This document shows positions 47,091 through 53,718 of a stretch of 64,000 nucleotides of DNA, piece by piece. This DNA is from Roseateles sp. (GTDB lineage: Bacteria > Pseudomonadota > Gammaproteobacteria > Burkholderiales > Burkholderiaceae_C): NCBI GenBank assembly GCA_016790285.1, contig JAEUPJ010000097.1, positions 1 through 64,000 of the forward strand, read 5' to 3'. Below the pieces are notes generated by a model, which saw only the letters and a list, made by a program, of their open reading frames with translations, was not told the origin of the DNA and made no database searches. The position numbers and the translations under genes are program-made. Each line of letters starts with the position of its first letter. The first letter of the stretch is position 1.

Positions 47091-47166
47091 GGGCGCTTAG
47101 CTCAGTTGGTAGAGCACCTCCCTTACACGGAGATTGTCGGCGGTTCGAGCCCGTCAGCGCCCACCA
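47091..47166 (+). tRNA. tRNA-Val (anticodon UAC)
   Basis: A 76 nt cloverleaf: acceptor GGGCGCT/AGCGCCC, D-arm TAGCTCAGTTGGTAGAGCA, anticodon loop CTTACAC (anticodon TAC), T-arm GGTTCGAGCC region, discriminator A and encoded CCA. Confidence 0.97.
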
Positions 47167-47283: not shown

Positions 47284-49197
47284 ATGTTCGAATTCGTCCG
47301 CAAGCACACCCGCCTGTTCCAGTTCATCCTGCTGATCCTGATCCTGCCGTCCTTTGCCTTCGTGGGCATGCAGGGCTACACGAGCATGATGGATGGCGCC
47401 AATGCCGGCGTGGCCAGCGTCAATGGGCGCAAGATCACCCAGGCCGAATGGGACGCCGCCCAGCGTGACCAGGCCGAGCGGGTTCGTCGTCAGAACCCCA
47501 CGGTGGATGCCAAGCTGCTCGACAGCCCGGAGGCCAAGCAGCAGGCGCTGGAAGGCCTGGTCACCGAGCGCACGCTCAAGGTGGCCGCCGAGCAGCAGCA
47601 CTTCACGCCCAGCCCCGAGTCGGTTGCCGCCCGCTTCTGGGCCGACCCGCAGTTCGCCTTCCTGCGCAACCCTGACGGCACCGTCAACAAGGCGCTGCTC
47701 GCAGCCCAGGGCATGACGCCGTCGATCTTCCTCGAGCGCCTGCGCCAGGACTACGCGCTGCGCCAGGTCACCGGCCCGATCGATTCCTCGGGCACCGTGG
47801 GTACCGCCAGCCCCAAGCTCGCCTTCGATGCACTGCTGCAGCAGCGCGAGGTGCAGGTCCAGCGCTTCGACATCAAGGACTTCGCCGCCAAGATCGCGCC
47901 GAGCGATGCCGACATCGAGGCCTTCTACAAGGAACCGGCCAACGCGGCCAGGTTCCAGCTGCCTGAGTCGGCCCAGATCCAGTACGTCGCGCTCGACGTC
48001 GAGGCCCTCAAGAAGGACGTCAAGTTCACCGAGGACGACCTGCAGAACTACTACAAGGAAAACGCCGCCCGCTATGGTGTGCCGGAAGAGCGCCGCGCGA
48101 GCCACATCCTGATCAAGGTCGACCGCAGCGCGCCCGCCGACGAACGCGCCAAGGCCAAGGCCAAGGCGGAGGACATCCTCGCGCAGGTGCGCAAGAACCC
48201 GGGTGAATTCGCAGCCCTGGCCAAGAAGAACTCGCAGGACGAGGGCTCGGCTGCCAATGGCGGCGACCTCGACTTCTTCAGCCGTGGCGCCATGGTCAAG
48301 GAGTTCGACGCCGCCGTCTACGCAATGAAGGCTGGCGAGATCAGCAACCTGGTCGAGACCGATTTCGGCTACCACATCATCCAGCTCACCGGCACGCGCG
48401 GCGGCGACAAGAAGCCCTTCGAGGCCGTGCGCGCCGAGGTCGAGGCGGAAGTGCGCAAGCAACTCGCCCAGCGTCGCTACTCCGAGGCGGCCGAGCAGTT
48501 CGGCAACCTCGTCTACGAGCAGTCCGACAGCCTCCAGCCGGCGGCCGACAAGCTCAAGCTGCAGGTCCAGACCGCCACCGTGCTGCGCCAGCCCCAGCCC
48601 GGCGCTGCGGGCCCGCTCGCGTCGGCCAAGCTGCTCGATGCCGTGTTCGGCGCCGAAGCGCTGCGCAACAAGCGCAACACCGAAGCCGTCGAGACCGGCC
48701 CGAGCCAGCTCGTGTCGGCGCGCGTCACCCAACACAACCCCGCCCGTGTCCCGCCGCTGGCGGACGTCAAGGACAAGGTCCGCGAACAGCTCGTGCGCAA
48801 GCTCGCCGCCGAGCAGGCCAAGAAGGCCGGCGAAGCCCGCCTGGCTGCGCTCAAGGCCAACCCGGGCGATGTCGCCGGCCTTGAGGCTGCCGTCACCGTC
48901 TCTCGGGCCAAGCCGCAGGCGCTGAGCCGCGCCCAGCTCGAAGCCGTGCTCGGTGCCGACGCGACCAAGCTGCCCGCTGCGGTGGGCGTGACGTCCGAGG
49001 ACGGTGGCTACGTGGTCGTGCGCATCAACCAGCTGCAACCACGCGACGCTGCCGTCATCGACGACAAGCGTGCCGCCCAGCAATACGCCGGCGCCTGGGC
49101 CCGTGCCGAAGGCCAGGCCTACCTCGCCGCGCTCAAGACCCAGTACAAGGCGGTCATCAAAGTCGCTTCACCCGCATCGGCGGCCAGCGCACCCTGA
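47284..49197 (+). CDS. ppiD: Periplasmic folding chaperone / peptidyl-prolyl isomerase PpiD
   Basis: A 637-residue membrane-anchored periplasmic chaperone associated with the Sec translocon. N-terminal anchor at about residues 12-34 (FQFILLILILPSFAFVGM), a SurA-like N-terminal chaperone domain (VASVNGRKITQAEWDAAQRD), a parvulin domain at about 270-375 (RRASHILIKVD, GGDLDFFSRGAMVKEFDAAV, VETDFGYHIIQLTG) and a C-terminal chaperone lobe. The parvulin core looks conserved, unlike the inactive E. coli domain, but activity cannot be judged by eye. Flanked by tRNA genes, as hupB-ppiD often is. Confidence 0.93.
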   Translation: MFEFVRKHTRLFQFILLILILPSFAFVGMQGYTSMMDGANAGVASVNGRKITQAEWDAAQRDQAERVRRQNPTVDAKLLDSPEAKQQALEGLVTERTLKVAAEQQHFTPSPESVAARFWADPQFAFLRNPDGTVNKALLAAQGMTPSIFLERLRQDYALRQVTGPIDSSGTVGTASPKLAFDALLQQREVQVQRFDIKDFAAKIAPSDADIEAFYKEPANAARFQLPESAQIQYVALDVEALKKDVKFTEDDLQNYYKENAARYGVPEERRASHILIKVDRSAPADERAKAKAKAEDILAQVRKNPGEFAALAKKNSQDEGSAANGGDLDFFSRGAMVKEFDAAVYAMKAGEISNLVETDFGYHIIQLTGTRGGDKKPFEAVRAEVEAEVRKQLAQRRYSEAAEQFGNLVYEQSDSLQPAADKLKLQVQTATVLRQPQPGAAGPLASAKLLDAVFGAEALRNKRNTEAVETGPSQLVSARVTQHNPARVPPLADVKDKVREQLVRKLAAEQAKKAGEARLAALKANPGDVAGLEAAVTVSRAKPQALSRAQLEAVLGADATKLPAAVGVTSEDGGYVVVRINQLQPRDAAVIDDKRAAQQYAGAWARAEGQAYLAALKTQYKAVIKVASPASAASAP

Positions 49198-49224: not shown

Positions 49225-49301
49225 GGTGGCTGTAGCTCAGTTGGTAGAGTCCAGGATTGTGATTCCTGTTGTCGTGGGTTCGAGTCCCATCAGCCACCCC
49301 A
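49225..49301 (+). tRNA. tRNA-His (anticodon GUG)
   Basis: A 77 nt cloverleaf including the extra 5' G (G-1) expected for tRNA-His: starts GGTGGCTGTAGCTCAG, anticodon loop ATTGTGATT, T-arm GTGGGTTCGAGTCCCAT, ends AGCCACC-CCA. Nearly identical to the E. coli gene. A possible -10 TATACT lies at 49207-49212. Confidence 0.97.
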
Positions 49302-50889: not shown

Positions 50890-51357
50890 TCAGCTGACGT
50901 AGGTGAGCGGCAGCGCGGTCGTCAGCTTGAGCTCTTCCATCGCGAAGCTGGAGCTCACGTCATGCAGCTGAGTGCCGGCGATGAGGCGCTTGTAGACGCG
51001 GTCGTAGCCGGCGATGTCGGGCACCACGACGCGCAGCAGGTAGTCCACGTCGCCGCTCATGCGGTAGAACTCGACCACCTCCGGGATGGCCTGCACGGTG
51101 GCCTTGAAGGTGTCGAACCACTCCTGGCTGTGCTGGTTGGTGCGCACCGAGACGAACACGGTCACGCCGACGTTGACCTTCTGCGCATCGAGCAGCGCCA
51201 CCTGCCGCGTGATGACGCCGGCCTCCTTCAGGCGCTGGATGCGGCGCCAGCAGGGCGTGGTCGACAGGCCCACCTGGGCCGCGATATCGGCCACCTGTTG
51301 GGTGGCGTCCTGCTGCAGGATGTCGAGAATCCGCAAGCCGATGGAATCCAGTTTCAT
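50890..51357 (-). CDS. Lrp/AsnC family regulator, DecR-like
   Basis: 155 residues: an AsnC helix-turn-helix (DSIGLRILDILQQDATQQVA, VGLSTTPCWRRIQRLKEAGV) and a RAM ligand domain (GVTVFVSVRTNQHSQEWFDT, MSGDVDYLLRVVVPDIAGYD, DVSSSFAMEELKLTTALPL). By recollection it is strikingly close to E. coli DecR (YbaO), which senses cysteine and activates cysteine catabolism: TTPCW-R, HSxEW, F/Y-RM-G-YDYL-RV and SSFAME are shared. It is divergent from the cysteine desulfurase fusion gene with 120 bp between, where its operator should lie. A cysteine-responsive role is inferred from resemblance plus context. Confidence 0.87.
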   Translation of the reverse strand: MKLDSIGLRILDILQQDATQQVADIAAQVGLSTTPCWRRIQRLKEAGVITRQVALLDAQKVNVGVTVFVSVRTNQHSQEWFDTFKATVQAIPEVVEFYRMSGDVDYLLRVVVPDIAGYDRVYKRLIAGTQLHDVSSSFAMEELKLTTALPLTYVS

Positions 51358-51477
51358 GAACAGGATGGTATGAGAAATGGATTGCTCAGGGCGGCCCATT
51401 TGGAGGCGAACTGTGCAACGCAGTGCTGCGCTCCTGTGGGAACAATGCGGCGCATTCGCCCACCCGAGCTTGAGCCC

Positions 51478-53718
51478 ATGGAAATCTATCTCGACGCCAA
51501 TGCCACCACACCCGTGCTGCCCGCGGCCCGCGATGCCGCCCTGGCTGCGATGGCGGAGGACTTCGGCAACCCCAGCAGCATCCACAGCACGGGGCTCAAA
51601 GCCCGGGCGTTGATGGACGGCGTGCGCGCGCGTGCGCGGCGCGTGCTCGGGGCGGGGCAGGGCCGGTTGCTGTTCCTCAGCGGTGCCACGGAGGGCATCC
51701 AGACGGCTGTGCTGTCGGCGCTCAGCGCGCTGCGTGAGCTGCCCGTGCGGCCGGAGCTGCTGCTCTACGGCGCCACCGAGCACAAGGCCGTGCCCGAGGC
51801 CATCAAGCACTGGAATGCGCTGCTCGGGCTGAACCTGACGGTGATGGCCATCCCGGTGGGCCGCGACGGCCGCCACGACCTCGGCTGGCTCAAGGCGCAT
51901 GCGCCGCGTGCGGGCCTTGTCTGCACGATGGCCGCGAACAACGAGACCGGCGTCATCAGCGACCTCGACGGCATCTCGCAGGCGCTTGCGGGCAGCCCGG
52001 CGCGCTGGATGGTGGACGGCGTGCAGGCGCTGGGCAAGCTGCCGCTGCTGCTGGAGGAGCGGCGCATCGACTACGCCCCCTTCTCGGGCCACAAGCTCTA
52101 CGCGCCCAAGGGCATCGGGCTGCTCTACGTGCGCGATGGGGCGCCGTTCACGCCTCTGCTCGCCGGTGGCGGGCAGGAGGGCGCGCTGCGTTCCGGGACG
52201 GAGAACATGTCGGGCATCGCCGCGCTTGGCGCCGTGCTGGCGGCGCTGGAGGCCGGTGGCACATTCCGCGACGCCGCCACTCTGGATGCCTATCGCGACC
52301 GTCTCGCGGCAGCGCTGCAGCAGGCGTTCCCAGGGCTGCTCTTCAATGCGCCGCCCGAACTGTGCCTGCCCACCACCTTGAACTTCGCCGTGCCCGGCAT
52401 CAGCGCCAAGCTGCTGCTGGACCTGTTCGACGCCGCTGAGCTGCGCGTGAGCGGAGGCTCGGCCTGCAGCGCCGCCAAGGCACAGCCGAGTTATGTCCTG
52501 GAGGCCATGGGGCTGCCGACCTGGCAGACGGCCTCCAGCGTGCGCATGTCCTTCGGCCCCGTGGCCGACGACGCCTTCATCGACGAGGCCTGCGCCCGCA
52601 TCCGCGTGTGTGGCGAGTCGCTGCGCGATAGCTGCCTGGACCCGAGTGCGCCAGGCCAGGCGCTGCCGGCCGACGGCCTCACGCGCTTTGTCGTCGACGG
52701 GGCCTGCTGCTACCTGCTGGCGGATGCCGCCAGCCAGCGCGCCGTCGTCATCGACCCGCTGCCCGAGCTGACCGAGCGCCTGGCGCAGTGGCTGCGCTGC
52801 CAGCGGTACGCGCTGGCCGCGGTGCTGGACACGCACAGCCACGGAGACCATGCGTCCTCGGCTGCAGACCTCTGGGCCGCCGTACAGCAGGTGCCAGGTG
52901 ACGTCGACCCGCTGGGCTGGCCGCGCAGCGCCGACCGCCTCGCGATCGGCGCTTCGCACCTCACACGCTTGGCGATCCCCGGCCACACCCAGGACTCGAC
53001 CGCCTACCTCCTGCACGACGCCGGGCAACTGCGCCTGGCCTTCGTGGGCGACACCGTCATGCCAGGCGCGCTTGGGCGCAGCGATTTCGAGCAGAGTGCG
53101 CCGCTCCAGTACGCCGCCTCGCTGGCGCGCCTGCGCGAGGTCGTGGGCTTGCGCACGCTGCTGCTGCCCGGCCATGACTACGACGACCGTTTCGCCACGA
53201 CGCTGGCCGTGGAGTGCGACGCGCAGCCGCTCCTGGCCGACGTGCTCGCCGGGCGGCTGGATGCCGTGAGCTTCGCGGCGGCCAAGGCCGAGCTGGAGCG
53301 GGACCTGGGCCTGACGGCCTACCAGACCATCGCCTGCGGCGCGCGGGTGGATGCAGGCTGCGCGCTGGCGGGCAGCGAGATGGCGCTGGCCGACCTGCAG
53401 GCGCTCGCCGTTCAGCACCCGGGCCTGCTGCTCGTGGATGTGCGCGAGCCTTACGAACAGCGCCTGGGCCAGGCGCCTGAACTCGGCGCCCAGGTGCGCC
53501 GGCAGGCCGTGGCCCTGTCGGGTCTGCCTGACGCCCTGGTGCAGTGGCAGGCATTGCCCGCCGGCACGCCCATCGTCTTCTTCTGCCGCAGCGGCAACCG
53601 CAGCGCGCAGGCTGCCCGTGCGCTGCGTCGCCTGGGCCATGCCGAGGCCTGGAGCCTGCGCGGAGGGCTGGCCTTGTGGCCCCGTGCGACGGTGGCTGAT
53701 GCCGCCCTGGCGATCTGA
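51478..53718 (+). CDS. Cysteine desulfurase - persulfide-dioxygenase-like MBL - rhodanese fusion
   Basis: A 746-residue three-domain protein. Domain 1 (about 1-375) is a NifS/IscS-like class V aminotransferase: YLDANATTPVLPA, PLP Lys206 in SGHKLYAPKG, active-site Cys330 in SGGSACSAAKAQPSY. Domain 2 (about 390-610) is a metallo-beta-lactamase fold with THSHGDH (His453, His455, Asp457, His458), PGHT (His503), GDT (Asp525), GRSDFEQ and LPGHDY (His566), the pattern of ETHE1-type persulfide dioxygenases. Domain 3 (about 640-745) is a rhodanese with LVDVREPYEQR and loop Cys703 in FFCRSGNRS. A plausible flow is cysteine sulfur to persulfide, oxidation to sulfite, and sulfur transfer to thiosulfate. 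S. aureus CstB joins the last two domains; the added desulfurase is the unusual part. An in-frame ATG at 51445 is an alternative start. Confidence 0.9.
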   Translation: MEIYLDANATTPVLPAARDAALAAMAEDFGNPSSIHSTGLKARALMDGVRARARRVLGAGQGRLLFLSGATEGIQTAVLSALSALRELPVRPELLLYGATEHKAVPEAIKHWNALLGLNLTVMAIPVGRDGRHDLGWLKAHAPRAGLVCTMAANNETGVISDLDGISQALAGSPARWMVDGVQALGKLPLLLEERRIDYAPFSGHKLYAPKGIGLLYVRDGAPFTPLLAGGGQEGALRSGTENMSGIAALGAVLAALEAGGTFRDAATLDAYRDRLAAALQQAFPGLLFNAPPELCLPTTLNFAVPGISAKLLLDLFDAAELRVSGGSACSAAKAQPSYVLEAMGLPTWQTASSVRMSFGPVADDAFIDEACARIRVCGESLRDSCLDPSAPGQALPADGLTRFVVDGACCYLLADAASQRAVVIDPLPELTERLAQWLRCQRYALAAVLDTHSHGDHASSAADLWAAVQQVPGDVDPLGWPRSADRLAIGASHLTRLAIPGHTQDSTAYLLHDAGQLRLAFVGDTVMPGALGRSDFEQSAPLQYAASLARLREVVGLRTLLLPGHDYDDRFATTLAVECDAQPLLADVLAGRLDAVSFAAAKAELERDLGLTAYQTIACGARVDAGCALAGSEMALADLQALAVQHPGLLLVDVREPYEQRLGQAPELGAQVRRQAVALSGLPDALVQWQALPAGTPIVFFCRSGNRSAQAARALRRLGHAEAWSLRGGLALWPRATVADAALAI

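Follow-up and report, generated by a model that had tools for sequence, protein, structure and literature searches.

A cysteine desulfurase–persulfide dioxygenase–rhodanese fusion in Roseateles as a candidate single-chain route for cysteine sulfur disposal

Can one polypeptide take sulfur from cysteine and carry it to sulfite or thiosulfate? The question is raised by a 64,000-nucleotide stretch of Roseateles sp. DNA (contig JAEUPJ010000097.1 of assembly GCA_016790285.1, positions 1 to 64,000; hereafter the window), in which a single gene encodes a cysteine desulfurase (CD), a persulfide dioxygenase (PDO)-like domain and a rhodanese. We propose, with a probability of about 0.6, that this fusion is a trifunctional oxidative cysteine-disposal enzyme, which would convert cysteine to alanine and a persulfide, and the persulfide onward to sulfite or thiosulfate, in one chain. 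The gene and its domains lie as follows.

51478-53718, plus strand: CD-PDO-rhodanese fusion gene, 746 amino acids (translation, Pfam, relatives)
51478-52632, plus strand: CD domain, residues 1-385, with His102, Lys206 and Cys330 (Aminotran_5, 1.6e-50; fold matches Nfs1, NifS-like proteins and IscS by structure comparison)
52681-53277, plus strand: ETHE1/PRF-type PDO-like domain, residues 402-600 (sequence and structure comparison)
53386-53697, plus strand: rhodanese domain, residues 637-740, with Cys703, Arg708 and a CRSGNRS loop (Pfam, alignments)

The reading frame opens with an ATG, and the protein begins MEIYLDANATTP. A longer frame from 50656 is mechanically open as well; aligned proteins of the same genus agree from M(E/D)IYLD onward, and this alignment guided our choice of start codon. 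The three-domain fusion is real, because 18 of the 19 other genomes of the genus carry an open copy (67-87% identity, covering at least residues 2-736, no internal stops). A frameshift or mis-assembly joining separate genes, against which the initial annotation had advised a check, is thus ruled out. The one genome without a copy, G010, is 83% complete and lies in 750 contigs. The 746-residue chain of desulfurase, metallo-β-lactamase (MBL) and rhodanese parts described in that annotation is borne out by translation and Pfam, and every residue it named (Lys206, Cys330, His453/His455/Asp457/His458, His503, Asp525 and Cys703) is present and invariant in 12 aligned proteins of the genus.

Pfam places Aminotran_5 at residues 3-365, Lactamase_B at 411-468 (5.6e-10) and Rhodanese at 646-734 (9.9e-11). 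AlphaFold2 models the whole protein with a predicted local distance difference test score (pLDDT) of 87.9 and a predicted template modelling score (pTM) of 0.87, and residues 386-746 with 86.9 and 0.88. In the PDO-like domain the predicted Fe ligands are His453, His503 and Asp525, accompanied by the further key residues His455, Asp457, His458, Arg534, Asp536, His566 and Tyr568. All three domains thus hold complete active-site sets, consistent with the route from cysteine through persulfide to sulfite or thiosulfate that had been suggested for the locus. The desulfurase part scores below the NCBIfam equivalog cut-offs (TIGR03402, 262.8 against 530.75; TIGR02006, 178.1 against 643.2), and it is probably not the housekeeping desulfurase, since the window genome holds two further NifS/IscS-type matches.

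What kind of MBL domain sits in the middle? Its nearest solved relatives are 4ysb (1.1e-21; a Myxococcus ETHE1 by its structure title), then other ETHE1-type PDOs (4chl) and the PDO-rhodanese fusion BpPRF (5ve3). S. aureus 3r2u, which we take to be CstB, is a far weaker match (4.5e-5). According to PMC6060420 (here and below, PMC articles are cited from excerpts), the third His of HxHxDH is replaced by Phe or Tyr in Type III PDOs such as CstB; the fusion keeps it as His458. A CstB-like MBL, to which the initial annotation had likened this part, is therefore ruled out, and the resemblance to CstB is limited to the joining of MBL and rhodanese in a single chain. The iron ligands and the Arg and Tyr common to all PDO types are named in the same article; in our mapping they correspond to H453, H503 and D525 (a 2-His-1-carboxylate site) with R534 and Y568. 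Like ETHE1-type PDOs, the domain has the THxHxDH, GR(S/T)DF and HDY motifs and the H and D ligand set; unlike them, it is flanked by domains on both sides.

A profile of the C-terminal parts of 28 fusions matches BpPRF (5ve3/5ve4) collinearly over both domains (8.6e-42, profile positions 25-369 of 373), and BpPRF also ranks first in a Foldseek search with the model of residues 386-746. The root-mean-square deviation over both domains is 16.7, so the two folds appear to match while their relative placement in the model differs. BpPRF has no desulfurase, whereas the fusion has its CD domain at residues 1-385.

A shorter relative of this protein has already been produced and assayed. CD-Rhd of Pseudorhodoferax sp. 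Leaf274 is, in vitro, a desulfurase of unusually high activity, the most efficient characterised so far according to its authors, and a thiosulfate sulfurtransferase; it passes sulfur to thiols and to roGFP2, and it accepts thiosulfate while preferring cysteine (PMC8931425). It is also the parent of the CyReB cysteine sensor; Cys334 and Cys466 are the catalytic residues (PMC12319549). A two-domain member from Variovorax boronicumulans (L117, 501 amino acids) has its cysteines at exactly 334 and 466, and on this numbering we place CD-Rhd (WP_056898193.1) in the fusion's family. The window protein shares with CD-Rhd a NifS-like desulfurase (Lys206, Cys330) at the N-terminus and a rhodanese (Cys703) at the C-terminus; it differs in the segment of about 250 residues, containing the PDO-like domain, between the two. 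In the excerpted main text of the 2022 CD-Rhd paper (PMC8931425) the word 'dioxygenase' does not occur, and our partial coverage of the literature, by titles and abstract openings, gave no description of the three-domain combination. The two-domain enzyme is thus already known; its kinship with PDO-bearing fusions is new. The initial annotation had missed both CD-Rhd and the decay or absence of the PDO domain in many relatives.

That decay emerges from 109 aligned rows, made up of the window, 28 representatives of 44 loci from its taxonomic family, and the best 80 loci from a scan of named genomes with a desulfurase-domain alignment as query (three representatives equal to named loci were left out of the tree and kept among the rows). 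By alignment scoring, the PDO site is intact in 39 rows, partial in 5 (triad kept, other key residues lost), decayed in 42 (a shortened segment without the triad) and absent in 23 (no segment). His102, Lys206 and Cys330 of the desulfurase and Cys703 and Arg708 of the rhodanese are invariant in all 109. The five partial fusions, in which the iron triad is kept and other key PDO residues are lost, are L170, L177, L179, L110 and L122, possibly domains in the course of decay. One further locus (L103, G016:C201 1226-1991) holds a second PDO-rhodanese part (52-59% identical) that is split over two short, overlapping frames and may be a second copy that has broken up.

The gene is patchily distributed, as 47 of 299 genomes and 23 of 141 genera of the window's taxonomic family give a match at 1e-60 and, in a 369-genome sample of the class, only the window's own genome matched at 1e-75. 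The architecture spans three phyla: intact three-domain forms occur in Burkholderiales, in Pseudoalteromonas, Shewanella, Colwellia and Ferrimonas among the Alteromonadales, in Verrucomicrobiales and in one planctomycete. Two fusion genes that group with Burkholderiales come from records titled Methylotenera sp. (a metagenome-assembled genome, MAG; L104) and Pantoea sp. 18069 (L124), titles that are probably wrong. In the PDO-domain tree a single branch (100/100) separates 32 fusions from 10 PDO/PRF proteins, consistent with a single fusion event. The desulfurase tree, which is poorly resolved in places and poorly rooted on too distant an outgroup, implies at least 11 changes between intact and not-intact PDO, with two-domain forms intermingled with PDO-bearing and PDO-decayed ones. 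The shortened segments are recognisable remnants, which favours loss over gain. Given its presence in three deep groups, the one PDO-domain clade and these remnants, the three-domain form is probably older than the two-domain form, and CD-Rhd may be a stripped-down relative of it, since many relatives have lost the oxidising part.

Is the fused dioxygenase in use where it persists? Between same-genus pairs the median dN/dS is 0.19 for the PDO segment, 0.20 for the rhodanese and 0.10 for the desulfurase; within the genus, purifying selection acts on the PDO segment. Across small groups whose synonymous sites are partly saturated, PDO dN/dS exceeds that of the rhodanese in all eight groups with a decayed domain (1.06-3.0 times; absolute values 0.16-0.98), against 0.7 and 0.95 times in two groups with an intact one.

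Separate PDO genes offer a second view. They were sought with a profile of 10 separate PDO/PRF proteins, one of which comes from a counted genome (G042), and in 62 genomes of the taxonomic family the scores split cleanly, with separate PDO genes at 254 bits or more and everything else at 132 or less. Where the PDO of the fusion has decayed or is missing, 22 of 26 genomes have such a gene, and where it is intact, 5 of 36 do (Fisher 2e-8); with the window's genus left out the intact count becomes 5 of 17 (Fisher 4e-4). A genome with one intact and one decayed copy (G096) was counted as intact. Among 40 named Burkholderiales-like genomes a separate gene accompanies 1 of 5 intact, 1 of 2 partial and 22 of 33 decayed or absent PDO domains; among 22 other named genomes it accompanies 2 of 17 intact domains, neither of the 2 partial ones and none of the 3 decayed ones, which belong to Idiomarina (12 of the 75 named genomes first requested, and that of L177, were outside this search). 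The association of PDO loss with a separate PDO gene is suggestive, and a fused domain that provides PDO activity would be expected to make a separate gene rarer beside an intact fusion. The stricter rule, that the domain is lost only where a separate PDO exists, is weakened by Idiomarina and by part of the Massilia/Duganella/Janthinobacterium group, and phylogeny-corrected tests of it are not significant.

Two further cysteines may matter to how sulfur moves within the chain.

52633-52635, plus strand: Cys386, in the linker between CD and PDO, kept or lost together with Cys441
52798-52800, plus strand: Cys441, partner of Cys386 in the row alignment

The pair occurs in 38 of the 39 intact rows and in 4 of the 5 partial ones. 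The decayed rows have lost the iron site; of these 42, 31 keep both cysteines, 11 have lost both and none is discordant, making this the strongest association among 231 pairs of conserved positions (phi 1.0); the next are the neighbouring Gly480/Trp481/Pro482 (0.84) and the iron-site Asp525-His566 (0.81). Only three independent pairs underlie it (p not significant), so shared ancestry contributes to the association. We infer that the two cysteines could form a relay, a disulfide or a shared site.

How might such an enzyme be controlled? The fusion gene faces a divergent regulator gene.

50890-51357, minus strand: DecR-like Lrp/AsnC regulator, 155 amino acids, with HTH_AsnC-type and AsnC_trans_reg domains
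51358-51477: intergenic region, 120 bp between the divergent start codons
51371-51388: operator-like inverted repeat TGAGAAATG/GATTGCTCA, of putative role, read as corresponding to the GGAATnnnATTCC repeat that relatives have at a fixed distance from the regulator start

The regulator shares 48% identity with E. coli DecR, compared with 34% for Lrp and 26% for AsnC, and is the best of DecR's 11 matches in the window genome (153.7 bits; next 115.9), so the likeness to DecR noted earlier is upheld. DecR/CcdR regulators act with cysteine-degrading enzymes, and ccdR adjoins ccdA in Pantoea (PMC5423876). Here too the regulator gene adjoins that of a putative cysteine-degrading enzyme; the partner, however, is a desulfurase fusion where DecR, CcdR and CyuR have a desulfhydrase or desulfidase, and the inverted repeat upstream is a different one. 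Across 34 distinct intergenic regions from the window's wider group, the GGAATnnnATTCC repeat has its centre 23 nt away from the regulator start, pairing at 63% of positions against at most 41% at any other centre and in 500 shuffles; we chose this group ourselves and had seen the repeat in the same 34 sequences before testing it. The window's version is offset by half a base pair.

The regulator lies within 1.5 kb of the fusion at 17 of 19 loci of the genus (L001-L019), in tandem rather than divergent at L019. Across all rows a DecR-like gene adjoins the fusion in 61 of 109 by our own list (a gene about 3.6 kb away at L132 was not counted), which is 61 of 86, including 14 of 22 intact rows, once the 23 rows from Alteromonadales and other non-Burkholderiales are set aside; in those 23 no DecR-like neighbour was found at the score used. 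A fixed pairing is thereby rejected. Of the picture first drawn for this locus, the three active-site sets and the DecR-like regulator stand, while the likeness to CstB and the constant regulatory partner do not; the architecture is more widespread than that picture supposed.

Gene neighbourhoods give mixed indications of the product. Of 134 loci, some of them redundant, 5 have a gene for a TauE/SafE sulfite exporter next to the fusion (L097, L166, L167, L171 and L183, of which L166, L171 and L183 are the three from Verrucomicrobiales), a count from two seed proteins that may miss distant relatives; these neighbours fit sulfite as product. At L097 (4158-7286, genome G011 of the window's genus) the TauE/SafE gene lies directly downstream on the same strand, and a DecR-like gene stands in tandem upstream. 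At L182 (1803-9244, a Planctomycetaceae MAG) two SufB/D-like genes lie upstream of the fusion, and Rieske and FeS_assembly_P genes downstream; the fusion might occupy the spot where SufS is expected. A TrhO-like gene (UPF0176 plus rhodanese) lies just downstream of the fusion at L067 (6904-7809), and clustering placed such genes at 13 loci, immediately after fusions whose PDO is decayed or absent; one was confirmed by Pfam. Clustering of neighbouring reading frames was swamped by the shadow frames that high-GC DNA produces, and the follow-up covered the TauE, SUF and TrhO-like neighbours. In the window itself the seven neighbour proteins scanned are a SurA/peptidyl-prolyl isomerase (PPIase)-like foldase, DUF5694, EF-hand, flavin adenine dinucleotide (FAD) oxidoreductase, major facilitator superfamily (MFS) transporter, DUF3616 and M24 peptidase proteins. 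Upstream of the locus, tRNA-Val (tac, 47091-47166) and tRNA-His (gtg, 49226-49301) flank the foldase gene (47284-49197).

We propose a model where the pyridoxal phosphate (PLP)-dependent CD domain would convert L-cysteine to alanine and leave a persulfide on Cys330. The sulfane sulfur would then reach the Fe(II) site of the PDO domain, by channelling directly or via thiol carriers, and be oxidised with O2 to sulfite, while Cys703 of the rhodanese would shuttle sulfane sulfur between persulfide and sulfite/thiosulfate. The DecR-like regulator probably induces the fusion under cysteine excess in most Burkholderiales with the gene. Such a module would dispose of cysteine oxidatively and prevent free H2S from accumulating. 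It is tempting to go further, to a persulfide handed over within the protein to a PDO that lacks the ordinary glutathione contacts, with a co-evolving Cys386-Cys441 pair helping, in an older three-domain form from which CD-Rhd descends minus the dioxygenase, often where a separate PDO exists. We hold this fuller version only tentatively, at less than even confidence.

Several observations weigh against the proposed disposal role. The Arg of NPR and the LPxPK stretch, seen in ETHE1-type PDOs and in BpPRF, are absent in seven fusions aligned with six PDO/PRF proteins, and position 585 is Leu (36) or Phe (3) in the 39 intact fusions; on our reading of PMC6060420, that Arg and the Pro-Lys of LPxPK are Type I glutathione contacts, and ordinary glutathione persulfide may therefore not be the fusion's substrate. 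The best NCBIfam model for the MBL part is GloB, yet it scores 59.8 against a cut-off of 200.8 (the sulfur transferase/dioxygenase Blh scores 30.8 against 625); a GloB-like hydrolase is rejected, as both sequence and fold are closer to PDOs, and in Foldseek human glyoxalase II ranks only 23rd. For the link between PDO loss and separate PDO genes, phylogenetically independent pairs on supported branches number only 3 and 4 (sign tests, median p 0.25 and 0.5; one test used 90 rows, leaving out the 5 partial ones and those without a tabulated separate-PDO status), the three Idiomarina genomes with a decayed domain have no separate gene, and neither do 11 of the 33 named Burkholderiales with a decayed or absent one. 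Many lineages carry the fusion without the regulator, the inverted-repeat peak is not seen in 41 other intergenic regions (best 40%), and the 23-bp motif published for E. coli CyuR/DecR (PMC11408624) has no match in the window with up to three mismatches. No recognised sulfur gene is among the seven neighbour proteins scanned in the window, the SUF setting of the planctomycete fusion does not fit sulfite as product, and the literature searched yielded no biochemical account of the three-domain form.

The alternative that survives best is that the main job is the supply of persulfide or H2S, as the authors of CD-Rhd suggest for their enzyme, with the PDO merely a safety valve or a regulatory or structural insert. 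A dispensable PDO would explain why so many relatives lack one: desulfurase and rhodanese residues are invariant in every row, and the PDO site is intact in only 39. On its own, CD-Rhd delivers sulfur to thiols and roGFP2 (PMC8931425), and Cys386, Cys410 and Cys441 all survive in 29 of the 42 decayed rows, so the remnant may keep some role. Yet the iron-site residues of the intact domain are held across three phyla, under constraint like that on the rhodanese, and within the taxonomic family PDO loss tends to accompany a separate PDO; we consider a supply role unlikely. Far less probable is a role mainly in the use of thiosulfate for sulfur assimilation, to which the collinear BpPRF is assigned by its paper's title, and in which the rhodanese would make a persulfide from thiosulfate, the PDO would release sulfite and the desulfurase would be accessory: CD-Rhd does accept thiosulfate but prefers cysteine (PMC8931425), the regulator resembles one of cysteine catabolism, and dN/dS in the genus is lowest for the desulfurase. 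A dedicated role in supplying sulfur to Fe-S clusters or tRNA thiolation, where oxidation would take care of the overflow, has in its favour the SufB/D-like, Rieske and Fe-S-assembly genes of the planctomycete locus and the 13 TrhO-like neighbours and is similarly improbable, given the other NifS/IscS-type desulfurases of the window genome, a DecR-like regulator and no Fe-S assembly protein among the seven window neighbours scanned.

If the fusion is the cysteine-disposal enzyme that we propose, one polypeptide would do work that elsewhere is split over a desulfurase, a persulfide dioxygenase and a sulfurtransferase, and persulfide hand-over between fixed active sites would therefore become directly testable. 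CD-Rhd and the CyReB sensor would fall inside a larger family, and control of the DecR type would reach beyond cysteine desulfhydrases and desulfidases to include a desulfurase fusion. Dioxygenase domains that are intact, decayed or missing would then form a natural series in which to ask when oxidation has to remain joined to desulfuration.

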